Of a stretch of DNA of 7,863 bases, positions 1-7,863 are shown piece after piece. Positions within the stretch are counted from its first letter, which is position 1. Each line of letters opens with the position of its first letter. The notes beneath the pieces were generated by a model. It had not been told where the DNA came from, ran no database searches, and saw only the letters and a list, made by a program, of their open reading frames with translations. The stretch lies in the NCBI GenBank assembly GCA_016839345.1, contig JAEOUL010000198.1:1-7863 (forward strand), given 5' to 3'. This DNA is from Candidatus Thorarchaeota archaeon. GTDB taxonomy: Archaea; Asgardarchaeota; Thorarchaeia; Thorarchaeales; Thorarchaeaceae. The position numbers were made by a program, and so were the translations under genes.

Positions 1-1
1 A

Positions 2-610
2 GATGATGCGGCTCCACCCAAGATGTTCGTTGCCCGTTCCTTTGACATAAACAGACCGGGGACACTGCCTGATGCAATGCAAGGGGGTGTTGTAGGAGGC
101 TCAATTGTGCAAGGCAAACTAAGCATTGGTGATGAGATTGAGATATCTCCAGGTGCGAAGGGTGAAAAAGGATTCAAACCTATCAAAGCAAAGGTTGTAA
201 GCCTGTTGTCAGGTAGTGGAAACTCACTCCAAGAAGCTTATCCTGGAGGTCTTATTGGTGTTGGAACTGCACTTGATCCTGCATCAACACGCGCAGACCG
301 GCTTGTTGGAAATGTTGTTGGAAAGGTTGGAAAGATGCCCAAGATTTTCAACAAACTCATGATTAAACCAACTCTAATGCAGCGTGTAGTGGGAATTGAA
401 TCAAAGAAAGAAGTAGAGAACCTCCGACTTAACGAGCCAATGATGCTCGTTTTGGGGACTGCTCCAACTGTAGGTGTTATCACCAGGCTTCATGGTGAAG
501 AGATTGAGTTGACTCTCAAACGGCCTGTGGTTGCAGAGAAAGGTCAGCGGATGGCTATCGGACGTAGGGTAGAGAACAAGTGGCGATTAATTGGCTATGC
601 TGAGGTTTGA
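2..610 (+). CDS. eif2g: Translation initiation factor aIF2 subunit gamma, C-terminal part (5' end outside window)
   Basis: GTP-binding core subunit of archaeal aIF2, which delivers initiator Met-tRNA to the small ribosomal subunit. The reading frame is open from base 2, so the G domain lies upstream of the window. The visible part is beta-barrel domains II and III: VARSFDINRPGT followed by GGVVGGSIVQG and GDEIEISPG, then AYPGGLIGVGTALDPA, and finally the domain III strands EPMMLVLGTAPTVG and RPVVAEKGQRMAIGRR, ending in WRLIGYAEV close to the usual C terminus. The gene sits 21 bases before a PIN-domain gene, an order commonly seen in archaea. A link with the initiator tRNA further along this window is attractive functionally, but the sequence shows only proximity. 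The family assignment is very secure. Confidence 0.96.
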   Translation, partial: DDAAPPKMFVARSFDINRPGTLPDAMQGGVVGGSIVQGKLSIGDEIEISPGAKGEKGFKPIKAKVVSLLSGSGNSLQEAYPGGLIGVGTALDPASTRADRLVGNVVGKVGKMPKIFNKLMIKPTLMQRVVGIESKKEVENLRLNEPMMLVLGTAPTVGVITRLHGEEIELTLKRPVVAEKGQRMAIGRRVENKWRLIGYAEV

Positions 611-631
611 TCGCCTGTTTTGGTGACAACC

Positions 632-1036
632 ATGCCACTTCCTGTGATAGTTGACACAAATTTCCTCACAGTACCAGCACAATTCGGAGTAGACATCTTT
701 TCTGAGGCAGAGAGAGTTCTGGAAAGAGGAGTTGAGTTTGTTCTGCTAGATTCGGTTGTAGATGAAATCAAGTCGAAGCTTGAGAGAGCAAACAGAACAG
801 AGGCTCGGATATTGAGAGTTGCCTTAGATTTAGGTCGTAGATGCACACTTGTCAGCGTCAACCTGTCAATGAAGGAAATTCCGGTGGATGACCAGCTTTT
901 GGAGCATACCAAATCTGTAGGTGGTGTTCTAGCAACAAATGATCGCGAGCTTAGGGAAAGAGCAATTTCGCAGGGAATACCAGTTCTATTACTTAAAGGT
1001 AGGAAGTATCTAGGACTAGAAGGAACTGTAATTTGA
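632..1036 (+). CDS. PIN-domain ribonuclease, Fcf1/VapC9-like
   Basis: A 134-residue single PIN domain. The expected acidic metal-binding residues are visible: D8 in VDTNF, E45 in VVDEI, D86/D87 in VDDQLL and D104 in the ATNDREL motif. The C-terminal RKYLGLEG is typical of the archaeal Fcf1/Utp24-like branch, proposed to act in rRNA processing; the toxin-like VapC label also occurs for these proteins. I chose the ATG at 632 because VIVDTN then falls at the usual distance from the N terminus; TTG 620 and GTG 623 are in-frame alternatives adding three or four residues. No antitoxin gene is adjacent, and the position right after aIF2 gamma argues for a housekeeping RNA-processing role. The exact substrate cannot be read from the sequence. 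Confidence 0.9.
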   Translation: MPLPVIVDTNFLTVPAQFGVDIFSEAERVLERGVEFVLLDSVVDEIKSKLERANRTEARILRVALDLGRRCTLVSVNLSMKEIPVDDQLLEHTKSVGGVLATNDRELRERAISQGIPVLLLKGRKYLGLEGTVI

Positions 1037-1048
1037 GACCGTGTCACA

Positions 1049-1061
1049 ACGTTTTTATGTT
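1049..1061 (+). promoter_or_regulatory. Candidate TATA box for the rpo7-spt4 transcript
   Basis: A T-rich GTTTTTATGTTTT stretch lies in the 130-base gap between the PIN gene and rpo7, the widest gap so far in the cluster. A start about 25 bases downstream would give a leader of roughly 85 bases. No clear purine BRE is present, so support is weak. Confidence 0.35.
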
Positions 1062-1166
1062 TTACAAAGCGAGTCTGCGCTGAGCCGTCGGGTCCAGACC
1101 TCAAGAAAGTCCTTGAGTCTGATTATTCTGATGAGAATCGTCCTGCTAGGCAAGGAGCGTCAATAG

Positions 1167-1757
1167 TTGTACAGTATAGTGACAGTAAAAGATGTGGTGC
1201 GAATTCCACCATCTCAGTTTGGTTCCCCAATGGAAGACGCAGCCATGCTGCACCTACGAAAGCAGCACGAAAATGTCCTAGACCGAGATGTTGGTCTGAT
1301 GATTGCAGTCATTGGAATAGATGAAATAGGTCAGGGTCGTCTGGTACCAGGTGATGGCGCAACATATCATTCAGTGACATATCGTGTACTGGTTTTCAAA
1401 CCATTACGACACGAACTTGTCGAGGGGAACGTTGTCGAACTTATGGACTTTGGTGCTTTCATTCGAATGGGGCCTCTTGACGGGCTCTGTCATGTCAGTC
1501 AAATCTGTGACGACTTCATAACCCAGGACTCAAAGGGAAATTCGCTTCTTGGCAAGGAAACTGGAAGAACTCTGTCCGAAGGTGATATGGTTCGAGCTAG
1601 AGTTACTTCGATAAGCTTTGAATCTGGTAACAAGTCAGGAAAGCTCGGTCTCACAATGAGACAGCCATTCCTGGGAAAGATTGGACCAGATCGTTCGTGG
1701 ATCGAGGAAGATGTGAAAGCAGCCCGAGGGGAAACGAAGAAGGACAAGAAGAAGTAG
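1167..1757 (+). CDS. rpoE1: DNA-directed RNA polymerase subunit Rpo7 (E')
   Basis: Stalk subunit of archaeal RNA polymerase, the counterpart of eukaryotic Rpb7, which works as a heterodimer with Rpo4. The 196-residue protein starts with MYSIVTVKDVVRIPP, the hallmark N-terminal tip domain. It continues with DVGLMIAVIGIDEIGQGRLVPGDGATYH and enters an S1 RNA-binding domain from about residue 82: VEGNVVELMDFGAFIRMGPLDG, then CHVSQI and GDMVRARVTSI. The start codon is TTG at 1167, chosen because it gives the family-typical N terminus and has GGAG at 1154-1157, nine bases away. The C terminus is Lys-rich (ETKKDKKK) and ends at about the usual length. Spt4 follows after 27 bases, the common archaeal rpoE'-rpoE'' pairing. 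Confidence 0.96.
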   Translation: MYSIVTVKDVVRIPPSQFGSPMEDAAMLHLRKQHENVLDRDVGLMIAVIGIDEIGQGRLVPGDGATYHSVTYRVLVFKPLRHELVEGNVVELMDFGAFIRMGPLDGLCHVSQICDDFITQDSKGNSLLGKETGRTLSEGDMVRARVTSISFESGNKSGKLGLTMRQPFLGKIGPDRSWIEEDVKAARGETKKDKKK

Positions 1758-1784
1758 AGCAAGGAGTGGATACTGATAGTAAAA

Positions 1785-1988
1785 ATGAGAGCTTGCCGAG
1801 CCTGTCACTACCTCACTTCAGAGAATATGTGTCCCAATTGTAAGGGTACAAATCTTACCACTTCGTATACTGGAATAGTTGTGATTCTTCCTGGACGAAA
1901 ATCTCGTGAGGACCCGAGGAAGTCTTCCTATGTTGCATCACGACTTAATATTGACAAGCCAGGGAAATATGCACTGAAAGTCCGCTAG
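1785..1988 (+). CDS. spt4: Transcription elongation factor Spt4 (RNA polymerase subunit E'')
   Basis: Small zinc-binding protein that pairs with Spt5 to form the processivity clamp on archaeal RNA polymerase. The 67-residue product has the four zinc ligands C4, C7, C16 and C19 in a CxxC-8-CxxC arrangement (RACRACHYL and MCPNCKG). The Spt5-contacting core GIVVILPGRKS follows, and the C terminus is GKYALKVR. ATG 1785 is the natural start. The nearest GGAG (1763-1766) is about 18 bases away, far for a Shine-Dalgarno element; a CTG at 1773 is in frame and better spaced but would add an unusual MIVK extension, so I did not use it. It lies directly downstream of rpo7 and is probably co-transcribed with it. 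Confidence 0.94.
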   Translation: MRACRACHYLTSENMCPNCKGTNLTTSYTGIVVILPGRKSREDPRKSSYVASRLNIDKPGKYALKVR

Positions 1989-2009
1989 ACATTTCCTTGT
2001 CTGTGGTGA

Positions 2010-2021
2010 AAGCTTTATTAG
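2010..2021 (+). promoter_or_regulatory. Candidate TATA box for the S24e-S27ae transcript
   Basis: AAGCTTTATTAG, preceded by the purine-rich GTGAAAG, lies in the 96-base gap after spt4. Transcription about 25 bases downstream would give a leader of some 45 bases before the S24e ATG at 2085. Confidence 0.45.
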
Positions 2022-2084
2022 ACATCCTCAAGTCGAACGGTTGACCCACCCCGGATGCGGTCTGACTTTCGGTAAGTGATACTA

Positions 2085-2387
2085 ATGAAAATCGAAATTC
2101 TTGAAGAACGGGAAAACAAGCCTCTTGCGAGGAAGGAGGTTGACTTTAGAGTCGACCATGCAGGCGCAGGAACTCCGAGTCGGGCTGATATCCGTGCGAA
2201 GATTGTAGCACAGTTTGACGCAGACAAAGAGAGTGTGATAATTAAGAGTCTTGATACCAAGTTCGGAGCCGGGATAACTGAGGGGTCTGCTAGAATCTAC
2301 TCTGATCCCGACCAGATGAAACGGATTGAGCTTAACCACATCGTAAAGAGGCATAAGTCAGAGGAAAAGGAAGAGGGTGAGTCCTAG
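2085..2387 (+). CDS. rps24e: 30S ribosomal protein S24e
   Basis: Archaeal/eukaryotic small-subunit ribosomal protein. The 100-residue product begins MKIEILEERENKPLARKEV and continues with FRVDHAGAGTPSR, the conserved VDHxGxxTPSR element, then DKESVIIKSLDTKFGAG and SARIYSDPDQMKRIE, all characteristic of S24e. ATG 2085 places the first beta strand at the normal position; GTG 2076 is in frame and would add only three residues. The C terminus is charged (EEKEEGES), as usual in archaea. The stop codon ends exactly one base before the S27ae start codon, which indicates a two-gene operon with tight translational coupling. Confidence 0.95.
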   Translation: MKIEILEERENKPLARKEVDFRVDHAGAGTPSRADIRAKIVAQFDADKESVIIKSLDTKFGAGITEGSARIYSDPDQMKRIELNHIVKRHKSEEKEEGES

Positions 2388-2552
2388 ATGCCAAAGGCAC
2401 ATGATATGTATAAGGTTGACAAGTCAGGAGATATTACTCGGACAAAGAAGACCTGTCCTCGTTGCGAGAAAGGCACCTTCATGGCCGAACACTTTGACCG
2501 TTTTGCGTGTGGGCGATGTGGGTACACAGAGTTCAAACGTAAAGGCAAGTAA
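2388..2552 (+). CDS. rps27ae: 30S ribosomal protein S27ae
   Basis: A 54-residue zinc-ribbon ribosomal protein, easily missed because of its size. It starts MPKAHDMYKVD, then TRTKKTCPRCEKGTFMAEH and RFACGRCGYTEFKRKGK. The zinc ligands are C23, C26, C41 and C44. The length and both CxxC knuckles match archaeal S27ae, which lacks the ubiquitin fusion found in eukaryotes. ATG 2388 directly abuts the S24e stop (2385-2387), and the purine-rich AGAGGGTGAG inside the end of S24e can act as ribosome-binding site. Many archaea have the Kae1/Bud32 gene next; here the conserved cluster ends and accessory DNA begins. Confidence 0.95.
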   Translation: MPKAHDMYKVDKSGDITRTKKTCPRCEKGTFMAEHFDRFACGRCGYTEFKRKGK

Positions 2553-2556
2553 TTGG

Positions 2557-2814
2557 TCATTCACCAACAATAGCCATTATCCATCTCACAAATAACAGCA
2601 CACCAATTATCATTGTTAGTACAATATCTACGAGGAATACTCCTGGGATGTAGACCTCTGTCCATGAAGCCAGAATGAGTGCGATTGGAAATGTCACGAT
2701 AAACGGAAGAGTGGCCACAGTCAACGAGATCTCTTCGCTAGAAACCATTGCATTCACAAGAAGGACAATCCAGATAGCATAGATTCCTACAAGGAGTGCC
2801 ACCTGCAACATCAT
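2557..2814 (-). CDS. Small three-helix membrane protein, unknown function
   Basis: An 85-residue, very hydrophobic protein with predicted membrane segments at about residues 3-23, 32-52 and 57-79, and a short polar link VSSEE between the first two. I do not recognise a family. The start ATG 2812-2814 has a GGAG about 11 bases upstream on the minus strand, and the AT-rich ACAAATAATTC (about 2840-2850) could serve as TATA box. It is convergent with S27ae, with only four bases between the stop codons. In size and layout it resembles the small membrane proteins further right, but no clear residue alignment with them is visible and no tRNA-end repeat lies beside it. Confidence 0.68.
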   Translation of the reverse strand: MMLQVALLVGIYAIWIVLLVNAMVSSEEISLTVATLPFIVTFPIALILASWTEVYIPGVFLVDIVLTMIIGVLLFVRWIMAIVGE

Positions 2815-2968
2815 TGTGATCTTACTCCAGTTTTCATTGTGTTTGAATTATTTGTGTATCATATCATTTTCTAGGCTATCTCTTTTCAACACATTCAAAG
2901 CTAGTTGGGTTAGGCGTTTTGGTTAATTCCTGTATTCTTTATTTGAACAGGTTATTGCGCGAACATGA

Positions 2969-3190
2969 TACACTATTGTATCTGCAGAGGGAACTTCAGT
3001 AGAACAATTACTATGTGACTTCAATCTATCTTATAGTACGAATTCAGAGGGGATTGATGTACGTGTATCTGGAGTTACTCCATCTCTGTATGTGACTGAT
3101 CTGTCTTTGTCAGTCATTGTTCTTGGATTGACTTTCTTAGCTGTGTTGATTCTTATTTCGAGATTCAAGAGAAAAAGTTGTAGCGGGTAG
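2969..3190 (+). pseudogene. Remnant of a C-terminally membrane-anchored protein
   Basis: An open frame of about 73 codons with no ATG or usable upstream GTG/TTG: a TGA at 2966 closes the frame and no start precedes the hydrophobic part except internal codons. It encodes a polar stretch (SVEQLLCDFNLSYSTN), then SGVTPSLYVTDLS, a single membrane helix (SVIVLGLTFLAVLILI) and a basic tail SRFKRKSCSG. This helix-plus-basic-tail ending is the same type as in the secreted protein at 4830-5618. Its last codons and stop (AGC GGG TAG) lie in a copy of the tRNA-end repeat. It reads best as the 3' remnant of a longer gene whose N-terminal part is gone; a live gene with an unusual start is less likely. Confidence 0.45.
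3177..3190 (+). repeat. tRNA-3'-end-like repeat, copy 1
   Basis: GTTGTAGCGGGTAG matches 11 of 12 bases of the core GTGGTAGCGGGT found at the 3' end of the tRNA at 6519-6530. As at the tRNA, it is preceded by a run of five A. It supplies the final codons and stop of the remnant ORF. Confidence 0.7.
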
Positions 3191-3240
3191 TTTGATTATC
3201 AAGATTATAGTATTACCTTGGTATGACAATGGTCTTGAAA

Positions 3241-3250
3241 GATTAATATG
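3241..3250 (+). promoter_or_regulatory. Candidate TATA box for the nuclease-like gene
   Basis: GATTAATATG, with GAAA before it, sits about 56-65 bases before the first plausible start codons at 3306/3309. The position allows a 30-40 base leader. Low support. Confidence 0.25.
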
Positions 3251-3305
3251 GATGGAATCACAGGTTATTCTAGGGCATGCAGGACTAAAGAATCAAACAT
3301 CAAGT

Positions 3306-3441
3306 ATGATGTCTTTACAGAGAATCGTGGAGGAGGATTATTCACATTTGGGAGGACAAGGATGAGCAGCCAGACGGACGGATTTATGACCCAGTAATTG
3401 GACTGCTTAAAGAACTCTTTAGGGCGAAAGGGAACTGTACC
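3306..3441 (+). pseudogene. Frameshifted 5' part of the nuclease-like gene
   Basis: Two ATG codons (3306, 3309) open a frame reading MMSLQRIVEEDYSHLGGQG, which stops at TGA 3363-3365. In the next frame, open from 3310 and continuous with the downstream gene, the text from 3361 reads DEQPDGRIYDPVIGLLKEL, which looks like normal protein. Joining the two at about 3350-3361 with a one-base shift would give a gene of about 180 residues, starting at 3306/3309 and running to 3858. The shift lies near GGGAGGACAAGG. It may be a real mutation or a sequencing error; the sequence alone cannot decide. Confidence 0.5.
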
Positions 3442-3858
3442 TTGGAAAGGACTGACAGATTGATTAGTAATGATATTAAGAAAGACTTAGACAATGTGGC
3501 ACTTCTTGCCCTTGGCGCAGAGAAATTGTTCCCTGATTTGATGGGGTGTCTTGATATCAAAGGACTGTTATTTTCAGAAGAAAGTAGATTGATAGTAGTG
3601 AAAATAGAGATGGGTGTTTTAACTCTCAAAGATTTATACCAAGTAAAGATGTTTGCTGAAGTATTTCAAGCGTACTACGCTTTTCTTATTTCTCCTGAAG
3701 GATTTCAGGGTGAACAAAGAAGAGTGATCGTCGAAATCCCTGAATTACTCAACTTTTGTACTCAGGATTATGAACGTCAAATCATAGTAATGTATTGGCG
3801 AAAAAACACTCTTGAGATAGATGAGGAACTATGTAAAGAAGACCCGTTTGTAACTTGA
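3442..3858 (+). CDS. PD-(D/E)XK nuclease-like protein, possibly inactive, probably missing its N terminus
   Basis: A 138-residue frame counted from TTG 3442; the frame is open upstream to 3310, and the true N terminus probably lies in another frame (see 3306-3441). Residues 30-83 have the look of a restriction-endonuclease-like core: PDLMGCLD with D32, a strand-rich IVVKIEMG, then LTLKDLYQVKMFAEVFQAYYAFLIS, a helix rich in aromatic residues leading into a strand. In this fold the second strand normally carries ExK; here positions 54-56 read K-I-E, so the expected acid and lysine appear exchanged. The protein may therefore not cut DNA. It lies between copies 1 and 2 of the tRNA-end repeat as the sole gene of that segment. 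The fold assignment is a pattern judgement, moderately sure; the function is unknown. Confidence 0.6.
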   Translation: MERTDRLISNDIKKDLDNVALLALGAEKLFPDLMGCLDIKGLLFSEESRLIVVKIEMGVLTLKDLYQVKMFAEVFQAYYAFLISPEGFQGEQRRVIVEIPELLNFCTQDYERQIIVMYWRKNTLEIDEELCKEDPFVT

Positions 3859-3910
3859 GTTCGTATCTAGTTGAAACAATATAAGAAATCGAAATGAGAA
3901 CAATAGGATT

Positions 3911-3950
3911 GTGGCAACGGGTAGTGTTACTGTGATGGTAAGATTGAACT
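3911..3950 (+). repeat. tRNA-3'-end-like repeat, copy 2 (long form)
   Basis: Begins GTGGCAACGGGT, 10 of 12 core bases, and continues with TAGTGTTACTG, then a near match to ATGATAAGATTAAACT. This extended segment is shared with the copies at 5791 and 6130. It closes the segment of the nuclease-like gene and opens that of the membrane protein at 3976. Confidence 0.7.
3939..3950 (+). promoter_or_regulatory. Repeat-borne TATA-like box before the membrane protein at 3976
   Basis: TAAGATTGAACT inside the long repeat begins 37 bases before ATG 3976. The equivalent box lies 40 and 38 bases before the starts at 5859 and 6196. The constant spacing suits an archaeal TATA box that gives a very short leader. 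Confidence 0.45.
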
Positions 3951-3975
3951 CAAACTTTGTATTAATTATCAATTG

Positions 3976-4287
3976 ATGTTTAATCCATCTTTACTCATTC
4001 CGTTCATATGCCTAGGAGCGTTAGTTGCCTCTCTGGTTACTGGGTTATTCCTCAGGTATGTATATGGACACACAAAATCGCGTATGGTTTCTCAAGCGAT
4101 ACTAATCATTCTGGGTGCGTTCGGAGTCTTCCTTATTATCTTTGGTTGGTCGTGGATACTGCTTCAACTTCCAAGAGTAGAATATTTTTGGAGCGCCTTG
4201 GGAGCCTCGATTATTGCTTCACTGATTTTTGGGATATTTGTGACATCCGGACTGAATAAGGATGAGAAAAAGAAGAGAGAGTGGTAG
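3976..4287 (+). CDS. Small three-helix membrane protein, type I (paralogue of 6196-6513)
   Basis: A 103-residue integral membrane protein with predicted helices at about 5-26, 40-62 and 70-91. Basic residues after helix 1 (LRYVYGHTKSR) and a charged tail (NKDEKKKREW) suggest a cytoplasmic loop 1 and C terminus. The stretch SQAILIILGAFGVFLIIFGW is matched by SQAIVVILGAFGVFFVIFSW in the protein at 6196, and LRYVY, SLIFGIFVTS and LNKDE also match, so the two are clear paralogues. I do not recognise a named family. ATG 3976 is preferred; TTG 3973 would add one residue. The stop codon is the TAG in GAGTGGTAGCGG, so the tRNA-end repeat supplies the last Trp codon and the stop. Confidence 0.75.
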   Translation: MFNPSLLIPFICLGALVASLVTGLFLRYVYGHTKSRMVSQAILIILGAFGVFLIIFGWSWILLQLPRVEYFWSALGASIIASLIFGIFVTSGLNKDEKKKREW

Positions 4288-4290
4288 CGG
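4281..4290 (+). repeat. tRNA-3'-end-like repeat, copy 3 (short)
   Basis: GTGGTAGCGG, an exact match to the first 10 core bases, then divergent sequence. It overlaps the stop codon of the preceding gene. The 96 bases from here to ATG 4387 hold no gene. They contain AT-rich CAGATTAATC (4360-4369) and TCTATAAAATCC (4371-4382), either of which could be part of the promoter of the next gene. Confidence 0.7.
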
Positions 4291-4386
4291 CTTAATCTGC
4301 AATATTTACTCGCTTTAAGATGATTGAGAATGAAAAGCCTACTCGAAACATAAGTTTGAACAGATTAATCTTCTATAAAATCCACG

Positions 4387-4704
4387 ATGCAATCCTCCGA
4401 ATCGATGCTTATTCCGATTGTCCTACTTGCTTTAGTCCTAACCTTACTAACCCTTGGAGTTCCATTGGCGACCTACAAAGGTCGATGGACTCAATGGTCA
4501 TTGCGAGCCAGAATAGGCCTCTTGTTAATCTTGGCTATCTCCACTGGAGTAACTATCTCTTTCCTGATGATGACGGATTTTGTTGTGTATTTTATCGCAA
4601 ATGACATCGCTGTGATTTTCGCTATTCTCATCATCATCTATGGGGTCTGTTCCAGCTCGTCATTCAGACAGTTTCTCAAAGAGAAAAGAAGTGGTAGCGG
4701 GTAG
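4387..4704 (+). CDS. Small three-helix membrane protein, type II (paralogue of 5859-6119), with repeat-encoded tail
   Basis: A 105-residue membrane protein with predicted helices at about 8-28, 40-62 and 64-88. It aligns with the 86-residue protein at 5859: PLATYKGRWTQWSLRARI corresponds to PLYRYKGKISESSILLRL, and LLLILAISTGVTISFL to LLILLAFGAGSTVFVL. The start ATG 4387 (MQSSES) gives the same N-terminal length as that paralogue; an internal ATG at 4405 is less likely. The tail FLKEKRSGSG extends beyond the paralogue because the frame runs into the tRNA-end repeat, which encodes SGSG and the TAG stop. No family recognised. Confidence 0.75.
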   Translation: MQSSESMLIPIVLLALVLTLLTLGVPLATYKGRWTQWSLRARIGLLLILAISTGVTISFLMMTDFVVYFIANDIAVIFAILIIIYGVCSSSSFRQFLKEKRSGSG

Positions 4705-4706
4705 TG
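4691..4706 (+). repeat. tRNA-3'-end repeat, copy 4 (exact core)
   Basis: GTGGTAGCGGGT is identical to 6519-6530 at the tRNA 3' end, followed by AGTG as in the long copies; similarity then ends. It marks the boundary between the gene at 4387 and the segment holding the opposite-strand gene. Confidence 0.8.
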
Positions 4707-4785
4707 ATGGATAGAGGTTGTCGAAACATCACTATCTGATTTGTTTTTCAGAAAAAGTCAAAGAAGAAATGAGCTTGGAGAGAGA

Positions 4786-4810
4786 TGGTTCCTCAATTTT
4801 CGAGGAACCA
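4786..4810. repeat. Perfect inverted repeat (hairpin) after the secreted-protein gene
   Basis: TGGTTCCTC and GAGGAACCA form a perfect 9-bp stem around the 7-base loop AATTTTC. It lies 20 bases beyond the stop codon of the minus-strand gene at 4830. No T tract follows on either strand, so it may be an mRNA 3'-end stabiliser or processing site more than a classic terminator. Confidence 0.6.
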
Positions 4811-4829
4811 CATCGGATTCCTAATCAAT

Positions 4830-5618
4830 TCACTTTCTCAACCTGATGACTACGCCAATAATCACTACCACTGCAATTCCTCCTCCAACAACAAGGAGGA
4901 TTGTCATGGTTGTTGGTAGCAGTCCAGAATATGGTTGAACAACTATGTTGTCGAGTGCTATTCCGGCTTCAGCAGTGAATGTGAACAGGTCGCTTGTTGT
5001 GTGATCCGAATTCTCAGCCGTGATTTCCAAAGTGCCGTTAAAATACACCGCAAAATTCCCATTTGGATCTCGAGTAATATCGATATGATACCATCCAGAA
5101 ACCTCTTCCAAATCATAAAATCCCAATGAAACTAAATACGGACTCACTGAGGGTCTACGATACAGGAGGAATCCAGTGCTCCAACGATCATACAGACCCG
5201 TAACTGGGATGATACCATACTCGAATGGATATGAAGAAAAATTCGTAGGATCCAATACTGGACTTCCAGATACAAATGCAATATAGCAACGTTCCATTGG
5301 AGTGTCTACACAATGGACATCAAAAGCCCATGAGCCATAAGCCACGTTACTTGTCCGATATGCTTCATTCCAGTACGGACCATAAGCACGCATTGTTTTG
5401 TCATCAGCCGTGATGTTCCCAGGGATCTTCGTCCATGGAGGGTAAGCCGGGCTGAATCCTTGGACATCCCATCCATCGATGTTTCCATCATTAAAGTCAT
5501 CCGACCATGCCTCCTCCTGACTGATTACGAAATCAACCTGCTTAGCAGAAGACATGGTTGGAAGCACTAAACATAGAACGAGTGCTAGTGTGAGCAAACT
5601 CACCTTCTTCTTAATCAC
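4830..5618 (-). CDS. Secreted, C-terminally membrane-anchored protein with concanavalin/LamG-like domain
   Basis: A 262-residue surface protein. Residues 1-25 form a signal peptide (MIKKKVSLLTLALVLCLVLP, cut after about SSA). The ectodomain opens with SDDFNDGNIDGWDVQG, the usual first strand of concanavalin-like jelly-roll domains, and later has GWYHIDITRDPNGNFAVYFNG, typical of the strand pair in such folds. Two Cys close together (VHCVDTPMERC) could form a disulfide. A single helix (TILLVVGGGIAVVVIIGVV) and RLRK tail anchor it, a common archaeal surface-protein plan. The start is GTG 5616-5618: GGAGGAGA lies at 5623-5630, five bases away, and it yields a clean signal peptide; an in-frame ATG at 5649-5651 would precede this ribosome site. 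It is the only opposite-strand gene between tRNA-end repeats. Carbohydrate binding is possible but unproven. Confidence 0.8.
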   Translation of the reverse strand: MIKKKVSLLTLALVLCLVLPTMSSAKQVDFVISQEEAWSDDFNDGNIDGWDVQGFSPAYPPWTKIPGNITADDKTMRAYGPYWNEAYRTSNVAYGSWAFDVHCVDTPMERCYIAFVSGSPVLDPTNFSSYPFEYGIIPVTGLYDRWSTGFLLYRRPSVSPYLVSLGFYDLEEVSGWYHIDITRDPNGNFAVYFNGTLEITAENSDHTTSDLFTFTAEAGIALDNIVVQPYSGLLPTTMTILLVVGGGIAVVVIIGVVIRLRK

Positions 5619-5663
5619 ATTCTCTCCTCCACTTAACCATAGGACACACAATAAAATTGAGCC

Positions 5664-5676
5664 ACACTATAAGATT
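5664..5676 (-). promoter_or_regulatory. Candidate TATA box for the secreted-protein gene
   Basis: On the minus strand AATCTTATAGTG lies about 46-58 bases before the GTG start, which leaves room for a leader containing the GGAGGAGA site. TTTTAT at 5652-5657 is an alternative. Low support. Confidence 0.3.
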
Positions 5677-5740
5677 GAGTCATTAATTAATGAGATTGAT
5701 AGTGGAATAATGTACAAAATAAGAAAAGGAGAGGGTGATT

Positions 5741-5755
5741 CCGGTATCGGGTAAT
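5741..5755 (+). repeat. Degenerate tRNA-3'-end-like repeat, copy 5
   Basis: CCGGTATCGGGTAAT matches 9 of 12 core bases. It is preceded by the purine-rich AAGAAAAGGAGAGG, similar to the A/G-rich sequence before other copies. The next copy is only 50 bases away, so these two may bracket a deleted segment. Confidence 0.45.
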
Positions 5756-5790
5756 CCCATTTGAAAATGAAGAAAATTGTCTGTTTTTAA

Positions 5791-5830
5791 GTGGTAGAGG
5801 GTAGTGTTACTGGAATGATAAGATTAAATT
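5791..5830 (+). repeat. tRNA-3'-end-like repeat, copy 6 (long form)
   Basis: GTGGTAGAGGGT (11 of 12 core bases), then TAGTGTTACTGGAATG and ATAAGATTAAATT. It is almost identical over nearly 40 bases to the copy at 6130-6169 and opens the segment of the gene at 5859. Confidence 0.8.
5819..5830 (+). promoter_or_regulatory. Repeat-borne TATA-like box before the membrane protein at 5859
   Basis: TAAGATTAAATT starts 40 bases before ATG 5859, in the same place in the repeat as the boxes at 3939 and 6158. Confidence 0.45.
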
Positions 5831-5858
5831 AAGACCAAAGAATGTATCATGTTCGAAA

Positions 5859-6119
5859 ATGCAACTCTTTGACCCAAGCTTTCCAATCCTTGCGATACTC
5901 ATTGGATCGGTGGTGGCAAGCTTACTCCTTGCACCACCATTATATCGTTATAAAGGTAAGATTTCGGAGTCGTCAATCCTACTAAGATTGGCATTGTTGA
6001 TTCTATTGGCCTTTGGAGCAGGATCCACTGTGTTTGTCCTTCTTGTTGATCCTATCTACATCGGTTTTGCATTCCTTTTTGTCCTACCATTCGCTGTCTG
6101 CTTTATGCTTAGGAAATGA
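5859..6119 (+). CDS. Small three-helix membrane protein, type II (paralogue of 4387-4704)
   Basis: An 86-residue, strongly hydrophobic protein with helices at about 8-28, 41-62 and 64-83 and a very short basic end (MLRK). The PLYRYKG motif after helix 1 and LLILLAFGAGSTVFVLL in helix 2 align with the protein at 4387. It also shares the general plan (helix, short basic loop, helix pair) with the type I proteins, so all four may descend from one ancestor; this wider relation is inference. The start ATG 5859 lies 28 bases after the TATA-like box of repeat copy 6. No Shine-Dalgarno is evident, consistent with a leaderless or nearly leaderless mRNA. Function unknown. Confidence 0.75.
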   Translation: MQLFDPSFPILAILIGSVVASLLLAPPLYRYKGKISESSILLRLALLILLAFGAGSTVFVLLVDPIYIGFAFLFVLPFAVCFMLRK

Positions 6120-6129
6120 TGAAAGAAAG

Positions 6130-6169
6130 ATGGTAGCGGGTAGTGTTACTGGAATGATAAGACTAAACT
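6130..6169 (+). repeat. tRNA-3'-end repeat, copy 7 (long form)
   Basis: ATGGTAGCGGGT (11 of 12 core bases), then TAGTGTTACTGGAATG and ATAAGACTAAACT. It differs from copy 6 at only a few positions. It lies 10 bases after the stop of the gene at 5859 and opens the last segment before the tRNA. Confidence 0.8.
6158..6169 (+). promoter_or_regulatory. Repeat-borne TATA-like box before the membrane protein at 6196
   Basis: TAAGACTAAACT starts 38 bases before ATG 6196, matching the spacing at the two other long repeats. This supports 6196 as the start of the next gene over the internal ATG at 6220. Confidence 0.45.
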
Positions 6170-6195
6170 CAGTCTTCAGTATTCTTTATTGACAA

Positions 6196-6513
6196 ATGTA
6201 TTATGTCGAACTTTATGATATGACTTGGCCATTGACATTTATGTTAATTTACGTGGGAGCAATAGCAACCTCGATCATTGTAGGATTCTATCTCAGATAC
6301 ATATATAGAAACTCAGAGTTACGTGTGTTTTCTCAGGCGATAGTGGTCATCCTAGGTGCGTTTGGAGTCTTCTTTGTTATCTTTAGTTGGTCGTTACTAT
6401 TTTTTGACCTGGGCGTACCTCTAGGAGTTTTGTTGCCTACCTATGGATTCGCGGTTATTTATTCTCTAATCTTTGGACTACTTGTAACCTCACGGATGAA
6501 CAAGACCGAATAG
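6196..6513 (+). CDS. Small three-helix membrane protein, type I (paralogue of 3976-4287)
   Basis: A 105-residue membrane protein with helices at about 12-34, 48-70 and 76-97. Identity with the protein at 3976 is obvious in LRYIY, SQAIVVILGAFGVFFVIFSW and SLIFGLLVTSRMNKTE. The N-terminal MYYVELYD has no counterpart in that paralogue, so ATG 6220 (MTWPLTF) is an alternative start giving equal length; the promoter spacing favours 6196. The gene is convergent with the initiator tRNA: its stop (6511-6513) is six bases from the encoded CCA end, and the intervening AAAAA is the tRNA's T-run terminator on the other strand. Function unknown. Confidence 0.75.
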   Translation: MYYVELYDMTWPLTFMLIYVGAIATSIIVGFYLRYIYRNSELRVFSQAIVVILGAFGVFFVIFSWSLLFFDLGVPLGVLLPTYGFAVIYSLIFGLLVTSRMNKTE

Positions 6514-6518
6514 AAAAA
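6514..6518 (-). terminator. Oligo-T terminator of the tRNA gene
   Basis: On the minus strand TTTTT follows directly after the encoded CCA and one C. A short T-run is the standard archaeal termination signal for tRNA genes. Confidence 0.55.
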
Positions 6519-6558
6519 GTGGTAGCGGGTGGAAGATTTGAACTTCCGATCTCGGGGT

Positions 6559-6579
6559 TTCTCCGAGCTACGAGGCTCA
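6559..6579 (-). other. tRNA intron at canonical position 37/38
   Basis: A 21-base intron, TGAGCCTCGTAG followed by CTCGGAGAA. GAGC/GCTC forms the intron stem with a six-base loop, and CUC of the anticodon loop pairs with GAG. Three-base bulges UAU and AAA lie on either side, which fits a bulge-helix-bulge substrate with cuts UA|U and AA|A. One A-G mismatch lies in the central helix. Confidence 0.8.
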
Positions 6580-6600
6580 TATGAGCCCCGCGGGATAGGC

Positions 6601-6631
6601 TTCACCCACGTGCGGACAAATCCGCACAGGA
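6601..6631 (-). other. Probable D-loop intron of the tRNA (between G18 and G19)
   Basis: A 31-base insertion with a seven-base-pair stem GTGCGGA/TCCGCAC around TTTG. The borders were set by the need for G18-G19 in the mature D-loop. The flanking bulge-helix-bulge is imperfect (C-G, C-G, a G-U and an A-G mismatch, with unequal bulges), so the cut sites are less certain than for the anticodon intron. Confidence 0.6.
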
Positions 6632-6697
6632 CTGGCTTCCCCAACCCGCTTTTACTTAAACTTTTGTTTGAACAATCGCAGGAGTCAAGGCCTTAGG

Positions 6698-6760
6698 CCC
6701 CAACCCGCTATGCTTGGAATGGGGTTTGGCTGCGGGAGTTTTAAAGTTATTCGTAGGACT
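6698..6760 (-). repeat. tRNA promoter plus tRNA 5'-end repeat, copy R1
   Basis: On the minus strand: TCCTACGAATAACTTTAAAA, a less conserved middle, then AAGCATAGCGGGTTGGGG. The last 12 bases (6698-6709) equal bases 1-12 of the initiator tRNA. R1 and R2 (7447-7509) share their ends nearly perfectly and differ in about 20 middle bases. R1 begins directly after the stop codon of the gene at 6761. Only 47 bases separate its tRNA-like end from the true tRNA start. Confidence 0.8.
6738..6747 (-). promoter_or_regulatory. TATA box in repeat R1, likely promoter of the initiator tRNA
   Basis: ACTTTAAAAC lies 29 bases before the tRNA-like AGCGGG at 6709, the normal spacing for an archaeal tRNA promoter. 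No comparable box is seen 25-35 bases before the true tRNA start at 6650. Transcription probably starts here and gives a precursor with a leader of about 59 bases. Confidence 0.55.
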
Positions 6761-7276
6761 TTAGCAGGAGCTAGCGTTTTTGGAATCAACTAGAGGACGA
6801 GTTGACTGTTTTCGCATCTGATGAAGCACCATGAGAGCCACAATCGCCAGGATAGATGGGATAGGGAGAAGCAGAATGTAGTCTATCCGGTACGCAACGA
6901 AAATTACGCCACCAATCAAAAAGAAGGTGAATTCATACTGAGCATAAAGAACCAAAGCAGCGACCACCCATACAACTAGGGACCGGTGGCTAGTTCTGGA
7001 CGAGTAGAGGATAATGGCCGACTGAACAATACCACATGAAATCCAGAAAACCACTAGAATAAGGAGGGTAGGATTTGGATGGGCAAAAATCGTGAAAGGG
7101 TTGGGTCCTGACCCGTAGAACCAGATTCGCTGGTTCAACAGACTGTAACGGCCCCAGACGAAGTACAACCAAGTTTCATATTCCTCGAACATGAACGAGA
7201 AGCTCACTACAGCAAATGGAGTGACAATTGTAGACACCAGTACAGCCAGCGCCGCGACCGGATATCGTTTCTGCAA
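6761..7276 (-). CDS. Four-helix membrane protein, unknown function
   Basis: A 171-residue membrane protein with hydrophobic segments at about 8-30, 69-92, 101-126 and 131-152. The loop between helices 1 and 2 is long and aromatic (YETWLYFVWGRYSL, FYGSGPNPF). The C-terminal tail RKQSTRPLVDSKNASSC is polar. I do not recognise a family. The start is TTG 7274-7276, strongly supported by GGGGAGG at 7284-7290, seven bases upstream; no ATG lies near. TCTATATTCC at about 7295-7304 is AT-rich but too close to be a certain TATA box. The gene is the only sizeable content between repeats R1 and R2, and R1 starts immediately after its stop codon. Confidence 0.72.
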   Translation of the reverse strand: MQKRYPVAALAVLVSTIVTPFAVVSFSFMFEEYETWLYFVWGRYSLLNQRIWFYGSGPNPFTIFAHPNPTLLILVVFWISCGIVQSAIILYSSRTSHRSLVVWVVAALVLYAQYEFTFFLIGGVIFVAYRIDYILLLPIPSILAIVALMVLHQMRKQSTRPLVDSKNASSC

Positions 7277-7312
7277 TGACAGACCTCCCCACGGAATATA
7301 GAGTCGGAAGTA

Positions 7313-7444
7313 GTGAAAAACATGTGGATTCCTTCGTCGTCACCCATGTTTAGAAGACTTGAGAGTCTAGAGATACGGTCCGGGGTGTCAAGACCTCTGT
7401 TTGTTGAATACTTTGGTGAGATAATAAAGAAATGGTTTGACTAA
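7313..7444 (+). CDS. Short ORF of about 43 codons, possibly a gene fragment
   Basis: Starting at GTG 7313 or ATG 7322, the frame encodes MWIPSSSPMFRRLESLEIRS and ends YFGEIIKKWFD at TAA 7442-7444, three bases before repeat R2. The composition is protein-like and amphipathic, with no membrane helix. There is no clear ribosome-binding site, and I recognise no family. It may be a small protein, the 3' piece of a truncated gene, or chance. It fills most of the 170-base gap between the two minus-strand genes that is not repeat. Confidence 0.25.
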   Translation: MKNMWIPSSSPMFRRLESLEIRSGVSRPLFVEYFGEIIKKWFD

Positions 7445-7446
7445 GC

Positions 7447-7509
7447 CCCCAACCCGCTATGCTTGAGCTGGACATCGCAGCGTGAGTTTTAAAGTAATTC
7501 GTAGGATTT
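7447..7509 (-). repeat. tRNA promoter plus tRNA 5'-end repeat, copy R2
   Basis: On the minus strand: AATCCTACGAATTACTTTAA, then AACTC, a variable middle, and AAGCATAGCGGGTTGGGG. Bases 7447-7458 equal tRNA bases 1-12. It begins two bases after the stop codon of the flavoprotein gene. It looks like the original promoter and first bases of a tRNA gene that once followed the flavoprotein gene directly, now cut off from the rest of the tRNA. Confidence 0.8.
7486..7495 (-). promoter_or_regulatory. TATA box in repeat R2
   Basis: ACTTTAAAAC, identical to the box in R1, lies 28 bases before the tRNA-like AGCGGG at 7458. Transcription from here would make an RNA that starts as the initiator tRNA but departs after 12-13 bases and reads towards the gene fragment at 7313-7444 in antisense. 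Confidence 0.5.
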
Positions 7510-7511
7510 GA

Positions 7512-7863
7512 CTATTTCACCTTCTTCGCAAACTCTTTTCCGAAATTGAAGGCTTGGTCCAGTTCTGCATCATCTGGCACCCATTTCACCGTGAAGGGTT
7601 CCATAACTATGTCCATCTTTCCCTTCTCCATAGACTCCTGAATCTTATTCGTTGCTCCTCCGCCCCACCCATAGGACCCGAAGGCAGCGCATTTCTTTCC
7701 AGCAGGTTTCAAGACTTCTAGATCAGAAAGAACAGAGGCAACAGTTGGGAGAATGTCATTATGTAGAGTAGCACTTCCTACAAGGATTCCCTTAGCCTCC
7801 AACAGGTCCGCCATGATGTCACTGCGGTCGCTGTGAGGGATGAGTTTTAGTATAGGTTCCAAG
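7512..7863 (-). CDS. FprA-type flavoprotein (A-type flavodiiron protein), C-terminal flavodoxin domain, partial
   Basis: C-terminal end of a flavodiiron protein, which reduces O2 to water or NO to N2O using electrons from F420H2 or rubredoxin in the cytoplasm. The visible 117 codons are the end of the FMN-binding flavodoxin domain: EAKGILVGSATLHNDILPTV, the family signature for the second FMN loop, then GKKCAAFGSYGWGGGA and the third loop, ending FGKEFAKKVK. The N-terminal metallo-beta-lactamase-like diiron domain lies outside the window; the TTG at the edge is internal, not a start. The stop is TAG at 7512-7514. Repeat R2 follows within two bases. In this context it is the ordinary chromosomal gene bordering the tRNA-linked cassette region. 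Confidence 0.93.
   Translation of the reverse strand, partial: LEPILKLIPHSDRSDIMADLLEAKGILVGSATLHNDILPTVASVLSDLEVLKPAGKKCAAFGSYGWGGGATNKIQESMEKGKMDIVMEPFTVKWVPDDAELDQAFNFGKEFAKKVK

Follow-up and report, generated by a model that had tools for sequence, protein, structure and literature searches.

A tRNA gene 3' end bounds a variable array of small gene units in Candidatus Thorarchaeota

Results

We describe an array of small gene units on a contig of a Candidatus Thorarchaeota archaeon (JAEOUL010000198.1, assembly GCA_016839345.1, positions 1 to 7,863), the whole 7,863-nucleotide length of which is called the window here. The array lies on the 3' side of a tRNA gene with a CAT anticodon, which we take to be the initiator tRNA gene, and its units are bounded by copies of the 3' end of that gene. 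The array is real, it is specific to this locus, and its units vary between relatives. Comparison of genomes suggests, with a probability that we put at roughly 0.62, that recombination takes place at the 3' end of the tRNA gene and that the array was built there by repeated integration of units.

Copies of the tRNA 3' end in the window

The original prediction described a 12-mer, GTGGTAGCGGGT, comprising the end of the tRNA gene read in reverse, with exact copies at 4691 and 6519 and near-matches at 3177, 3911, 4281, 5791 and 6130. All of these were found again on the plus strand, with one mismatch at 3177, 4281, 5791 and 6130 and two at 3911. When up to three mismatches are allowed the window contains 12 matches over both strands, compared with a mean of 2.9 and a largest value of 8 in 200 shuffles. 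With at most one mismatch there are 6 sites on the plus strand, the tRNA's own included, and none on the minus strand; the shuffle mean is 0.01 and the largest value 1 (300 shuffles). Beyond the tRNA's own end there are six more copies, all on its 3' side and in one orientation, as had been claimed. A further plus-strand site at 5741, a 9/12 match that had been counted as part of the array, was dropped because its three mismatches are at the level of chance and no homology breakpoint lies there. The seven cores are as follows.

6519..6530, minus strand: core copy 0, the tRNA's own 3' end (ACCCGCTACCAC)
6130..6141, minus strand: core copy 1, where homology to locus L063 begins
5791..5802, minus strand: core copy 2
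4691..4702, minus strand: core copy 3, an exact 12-mer
4281..4292, minus strand: core copy 4
3911..3922, minus strand: core copy 5, two mismatches, with the GTAACACT arm
3177..3188, minus strand: core copy 6, the last in the window

The pyrimidine tract that follows CCA in the gene is copied along with the core, and the copies therefore come from the gene and not from the mature tRNA. The plus strand copy resembles a primer-binding site; tRNA-primed reverse transcription was rejected as a source because the copies contain the gene's 3' trailer. Similarity to the tRNA had been said to stop abruptly after the core. This is correct on the T-arm side in the window, where the copies lack a T-arm, but on the other side the pyrimidine tract is shared, and in other genomes the common block extends into the T-arm or past it, some copies keeping a longer, degenerate tRNA 3' half.

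The six cassettes

Between the seven cores lie six intervals of 339-1100 bp, and the prediction of about one gene per interval is true of all six (ORF, open reading frame).

6142..6518, plus strand: cassette 1, small membrane protein, ORF 6196-6513, akin to cassette 5 (44% at the amino-acid level) and to a cassette of genome G027 (57%)
5803..6129, plus strand: cassette 2, small membrane protein, ORF 5859-6119, with a core-to-core relative in G027 (81.5% at the DNA level)
4703..5790, minus strand: cassette 3, 273-amino-acid protein that looks secreted and membrane-anchored, ORF 4830-5651
4293..4690, plus strand: cassette 4, small membrane protein, ORF 4387-4704, its stop codon inside the core
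3923..4280, plus strand: cassette 5, small membrane protein, ORF 3973-4287, with a core-to-core relative in G027 (72.8% at the DNA level)
3189..3910, plus strand: cassette 6, 138-amino-acid protein, ORF 3442-3858, no Pfam match

As to the kinds of cargo, the opposite-strand protein does look secreted and the small membrane proteins are present, four of them related, but the description of the 138-amino-acid protein as nuclease-like was not confirmed.

Relatives of the cassettes were sought in 47 genomes, namely the class of G001, which is the genome with the best-matching Thorarchaeota locus; the genomes compared are metagenome-assembled genomes (MAGs) from separate species. The relative of cassette 5 in G027 stands directly after the relative of cassette 2 and also matches cassette 1 (70.4% at the DNA level). 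Cassette 2 has a partial relative (70.9% at the DNA level) in G002, where the unit adjoins the tRNA. The closest relative of cassette 3 (71% at the amino-acid level) is at position 778671 of contig C1 of G016, and the only exact core of G016 is at 355483 of the same contig. Among the matches in the 47 genomes, the closest relative of cassette 6 is on contig C207 of G001, off the tRNA contig (C82). These positions away from the tRNA locus are what one would expect if the genes of cassettes 3 and 6 had been captured.

The copies are concentrated at the tRNA locus

The tRNA body, AGCGGGYTGGGGAAGCC ... RCCCGCTACCA, is present at 31 further loci, giving 32 unique loci with the window included and with L072, L011 and L017 removed as duplicate genomes. 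At these loci 27 copies with at most one mismatch (14 exact) are on the 3' side and the same strand, compared with 2 on the 3' side and opposite strand and 0 and 1 in the two classes on the 5' side. The 27 include the matches at L060 8324 and L069 17085 (oriented), which were not treated as cores. Extra copies number at least one at 13 of the 32 loci and none at 19; at L015, L066 and L070, at least three of the 19, none is seen because the contig ends there. At 3 of the 32 loci the contig ends less than 300 bp past the tRNA on its 3' side; this was considered as a sign of population heterogeneity, an idea that was dropped as resting on too few cases. The median interval length is 886 bp over 41 intervals.

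An equal frequency of the 12-mer throughout the genome would have spoken against an array tied to this tRNA. Instead, each of 10 related genomes has fewer matches to the 12-mer (one mismatch allowed) than to its reversed control, and 10 of their 12 exact copies are at the tRNA locus, one is on an array contig (G004 C24) and one is at G007 C148. Other tRNAs gave no repeats in the 5 cases usable as controls in the fetched loci, a sample too small for a conclusion. Viral contigs yielded 9 pattern matches, of which by eye 7 look like tRNA genes and 2 do not (one lies within a phage ORF); nothing cassette-like was seen among the nine, and the GTAACAC arm had no match there.

Units differ in presence, neighbours and order between relatives

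Several comparisons indicate that units move. At L012 the tRNA is followed directly by TTTACTATAGCTAA; at L007 a 1029-bp unit stands between the tRNA and that same flank, with a core copy bearing two changes just before TTTACTATAGTTAA. In G027 the relatives of cassettes 2 and 5 are neighbours, whereas in the window cassettes 3 and 4 intervene and their ends fall at cores; since the second of the two G027 units resembles cassettes 1 and 5 about equally, reordering is an alternative reading of this case. One unit is found core to core at 90-92% identity in G004, G043 and G045. Its neighbours on the tRNA side differ in all three, its far-side neighbour differs in G004, and relative to two other units it is ordered differently in G004 and in G045, the latter having additional copies of it. 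Between G003 and G033 the flanks are 88-90% identical and the intervening units have no BLASTN match to each other. In G018 a unit has kept its ends, and between them lies a block of about 5 kb that encodes an AlbA_2-Argonaute protein and a weakly DarG-like protein. Small units (about 340-480 bp) are shared core to core by several genomes, in some cases at other positions. Gene order is therefore not fixed, a finding that removes the other objection foreseen in the original prediction.

The positions at which homology begins or ends were compared with the cores on 17 contigs. Of 79 breakpoints, 42 fall in the range from -12 to +50 bp around a core, where 6.7 are expected at random and the maximum in 5000 randomisations was 19; this range was chosen after some junctions had been seen and the cores were picked by hand, and the 79 are not independent, since both match partners contribute ends, and some face the end of the partner's contig.

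The G018 genome has two such tRNA loci, L055 and L057, and may be mixed. The Argonaute protein of L057 (6180-9089) has 969 amino acids, carries an AlbA_2 (Schlafen) domain at its N-terminus along with a class I Argonaute part, and lies inside a 5.2-kb array interval. At L055 (4596-7289) a type II restriction enzyme and a C5 cytosine methylase stand directly 3' of a tRNA copy.

Large arrays in two genomes

The longest arrays are in G024, with 31 sites divided between a 32.7-kb contig (23) and a second contig (8), and in G023, with 7 on one contig, the sites being on a single strand in each contig. These counts come from a site model; 14 of the 38 sites went into building it and so match by construction. 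The E-values are approximate, and in G024 the three weakest sites are borderline. A scan of the 47 genomes with a stricter filter gave 28 sites in G024, 6 in G023 and 0-3 in the others. Here the repeat block runs from the variable region through the T-arm up to CCA, and ARAGORN found no tRNA gene on the array contigs of either genome. The intervals include genes for an Rce1-type protease, a luciferase-like oxidoreductase, a beta-helix protein, an acyltransferase and a methyltransferase. Two neighbouring units of G023 are on separate contigs in G024; they are shared up to the site boundaries and the arrangement differs. When an exact pattern was scanned over 227 genomes of the Asgard phylum, two or more copies on one contig were found in G004, G018, G023, G024 and G045, all in the class. 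None of the 180 Asgard genomes outside the class has two copies on one contig, by a pattern that was derived from Thorarchaeota, so that the tRNAs of other Asgard archaea may simply differ.

A model of repeated integration and what weighs against it

In the mechanism that we favor, small DNA units, mostly of one gene and 0.3-2 kb, would integrate at the 3' end of the initiator tRNA gene. Each integration would leave the tRNA whole, would push the older flank outward and would leave between units a copy of the tRNA 3' end, consisting of the acceptor 3' strand, CCA and the pyrimidine tract. Repetition would yield an array, and units could be exchanged or lost at the copies. We infer that a site-specific recombinase acts in trans, our first guess being a tyrosine recombinase brought by another element, that the unit passes through a circular intermediate, and that events run as insertion rather than deletion. 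Of the cassette array by repeated insertion that had been predicted, then, the modular structure, the bounds at tRNA ends, the unrelated cargo and the variable order are found in the data, and the integration reaction, its direction and its enzyme are still suppositions. A stronger version, in which Thorarchaeota possess an integron-like platform for gene capture at this site, of super-integron size (31 sites in one genome) and served by a recombinase outside the families searched, is tentative, and we give it rather less than even odds.

A number of observations weigh against repeated integration. The block common to the window copies is short (12-22 bp). The cores do not decay progressively with distance from the tRNA (Spearman 0.17, p = 0.38); the core lists for this, for the intervals and for the breakpoints were picked by hand (regular-expression matches and a few decayed copies with shared arms; L080 counts among the intervals but is omitted here), so that conservation of core positions is partly a selection effect, which leaves the flanking pyrimidine tract unaffected. 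Breakpoints away from any core make up 37 of the 79, and in G004 one unit lacks a core at its far junction. At least two of the 27 same-strand copies, those of L060 and L069, resemble chance matches within coding sequence. The small membrane proteins of cassettes 1, 2, 4 and 5, or four of the six, are related, and in G024 several units resemble one another at 66-88% DNA identity. Finally, the direction and rate of events are not visible in comparisons across MAGs of separate species.

The search for an enzyme points the same way. No integrase was found among the 10 window proteins scanned with Pfam, as had been predicted. A six-frame search of the 47 genomes gave 36 matches to PF00589 in 18 of them, none inside an array interval, the nearest being 15 kb from core copies on G004 C24. 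PF16795 and PF00239 were searched in six frames as well. PF16795, the SSV-type family, had no match in any of the 47 genomes; Sulfolobus acidocaldarius, one of the control genomes, did match. Serine recombinases (PF00239) are present in 14 genomes, with none in G024 or G023 and none in any array interval of the 47 genomes, and supply no candidate. Seven array genomes (G002, G005, G006, G023, G024, G027 and G043) match none of the three families. A profile of 13 Thorarchaeota integrases, run against nine array genomes, found real relatives in G045 only, the other eight giving only short C-terminal matches that by position are zinc-ribbon-like; G018 has a separate PF00589 match. Pfam scans of some interval proteins revealed no recombination gene. 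The enzyme may be missing from the assemblies, or carried by transient elements, or of another family than those searched.

The tyrosine recombinases of about 390 amino acids in G045, G033, G001 and G022 form a related group, none of them beside a core. The integrase gene on G045 C50 contains a core-like 11-mer with one mismatch, which by our estimate would occur by chance about once per two such stretches. At E <= 0.001, 29 of the 47 genomes have no PF00589 match, so that these may lack a XerA-type recombinase, or theirs may have diverged or been overlooked.

Alternative explanations

The array might instead consist of ordinary tRNA-targeting islands that accreted at one place, now eroded, with their own integrases lost and no present mobility. 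Archaeal elements are known to integrate in tandem at a single locus (PMC8371274), some intervals are large and hold defence genes, as in the 5.2-kb interval of G018, and some copies keep a longer, degenerate tRNA 3' half. Yet units of about 340-480 bp are too small for an integrase and still recur core to core across genomes, some of them repositioned, and no PF00589 or PF00239 match falls in an array interval. We consider this explanation unlikely.

A simpler possibility is tandem duplication, which the original prediction named for a unit that includes the tRNA end. The unit would also have held a small membrane protein gene, and homologous or microhomology recombination between the short repeats would later have reshuffled the copies. 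The relatedness of four of the six cassettes means that local duplication contributes to the window, and the GTAACACT arm, which continues for about 40 bp past the core, is common to cassettes 1, 2 and 5; the related G024 units agree with this. Duplication does not account for the unrelated cargo within one array, for cargo relatives that lie elsewhere in other genomes, for the replacement of a unit by an unrelated one at one and the same core, or for the G024 units that have no BLASTN relative in the array. As an explanation of the whole it is improbable, more so than the accretion of islands. That the repeats are chance or regulatory motifs (a terminator, part of a promoter, an antisense to the tRNA) with no role in recombination is very improbable, for although copies are close to ORF ends and the pyrimidine-rich 3' tract belongs to the repeat, their frequency is far beyond that of shuffles, they are confined to one side and strand of one tRNA, and breakpoints coincide with them.

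Comparison with known systems

The arrays can be set beside several known systems. Cis-mobilizable elements (CIMEs) and accreted islands occur at tRNA genes. The arrays share with them a tandem layout of units that lack an integrase and are bounded by att-like copies of the tRNA 3' end, and no recombination gene of PF00589, PF16795 or PF00239 was matched in the units. The arrays differ from accreted islands in their mostly single-gene units (median 886 bp), in having up to 31 sites per genome and in the use of the initiator tRNA; for scale, integrated elements of Thaumarchaeota have a median of 16.8 kb (PMC6563490). The archaeal integrative elements of the SSV, pNOB8 and SNJ2 types (PMC8371274) also differ in that the units here have no integrase, and an SSV-type integrase, whether split or present at the tRNA, was absent from the 47 genomes by PF16795.

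Archaeal integrons, in Asgard genomes among others, were reported by Ghaly et al. 2022 (PMC9668308). As in integrons, small units of about one ORF each (some with several) stand in tandem, separated by one repeated site. In contrast to integrons, that site is a tRNA 3' end and not attC, and the cassette genes are not mostly in one orientation: by the longest ORF per interval the counts are 25 and 13, a weak bias (p = 0.07), and 16 and 14, without bias, in G024 and G023. An integrase of the IntI type was not found with the arrays, there being no PF00589 match in the intervals or in G024 and G023; the MAGs may be incomplete, and the IntI-specific motif was not searched for. Attention was also given to attC-like folding. 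Over the 38 G024 and G023 sites, T-arm pairing was 88.8%, compared with 88.5% in shuffles, with no covariation (attC-specific software was not run), and the T-arm hairpin was rejected as a structural recombination site. The array works like an integron in its one-gene units, its repeated site and its exchange, and the integron features tested beyond layout were not found.

In Caldiarchaeum (PMC3293823), a mobile element with a recombinase gene disrupted tRNA-Thr at one locus. The tRNA 5' fragment beside an intact intron-bearing tRNA in that account resembles the 5' side described below, while the present case involves both sides of a different tRNA and many units. The passages of PMC8813620 that describe Heimdallarchaeal elements at tRNA genes contain no such arrays. 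Among the papers that our searches listed, titles and the openings of abstracts report no such array in Thorarchaeota, most subscription journals and bioRxiv preprints being outside the search.

If repeated integration is correct, these arrays would represent a second, independent design of gene-cassette array, in an Asgard archaeal group, with an essential tRNA gene as its docking site, cassettes as small as about 340 bp, and membrane, secreted and defence proteins among the cargo. They would give a concrete site and sequence with which to search for the recombinase, and would offer a locus where recent gene gain can be read in organisms that we know largely through metagenomes. Thorarchaeota are relatives of the ancestors of complex cells.

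The tRNA gene and its surroundings

The tRNA gene that anchors the array and the features on its 5' side are listed here.

6520..6650, minus strand: tRNA gene with CAT anticodon, called by ARAGORN on the hand-spliced sequence; the gene body is also at the 31 other unique loci
about 6560-6579 and about 6599-6630, minus strand: introns in the anticodon loop and the D-loop, ends placed by hand
6692..6761, minus strand: second copy of the tRNA promoter region with the first 12 nt of the tRNA (6698-6709)
7441..7509, minus strand: outer copy of the tRNA promoter region with the first 12 nt of the tRNA (7447-7458)

ARAGORN found no tRNA in the raw window and misread the unspliced gene. Removal by hand of a 20-nt anticodon-loop intron and a D-loop intron of about 32 nt gave a full cloverleaf, labelled 'tRNA-?(Met|Tyr)(cata)', with CAT within an 8-nt anticodon loop. 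Over the 32 loci the gene carries introns in the D-loop, the anticodon loop and the T-loop, at most three together and in combinations that vary from locus to locus. A T-loop intron was considered as a barrier to integration and rejected: extra 3' copies are present at 2 of 9 loci with this intron and 11 of 20 without it, a difference that is not significant (p = 0.13; three loci cut by contig ends excluded).

On the 5' side, an ORF of 171 amino acids (6761-7276) lies between the outer promoter copy and the tRNA, whereas at L071 (of the same genome as L011) and L001 the promoter region runs directly into the tRNA. It looks as if insertion may take place at the 5' end too. At L009, L012, L007, L069, L057 and L091 there are at least about 60 extra bp between the promoter and the tRNA; at L009 this stretch contains a decayed copy of the tRNA 5' end, and a TTGTTCAAA-like motif recurs in several of these loci. 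Immediately 5' of the tRNA of L055 there is an inverted core, so that inversion would be possible.

The left part of the window encodes, by Pfam, the C-terminus of eIF2-gamma and a PIN protein, with ORFs that we take to be RpoE-, Spt4-, S24e- and S27ae-like. The eIF2-gamma fragment (2-607) matches 22 loci, all of Candidatus Thorarchaeota, with a top amino-acid identity of 95%. At the right end there is a flavodoxin-like C-terminus, slightly under the Pfam cut-off. The tRNA faces the S27ae cluster in some genomes and points the opposite way in others (L001, L006, L011 and the window as compared with L007, L009, L012, L015 and L017).

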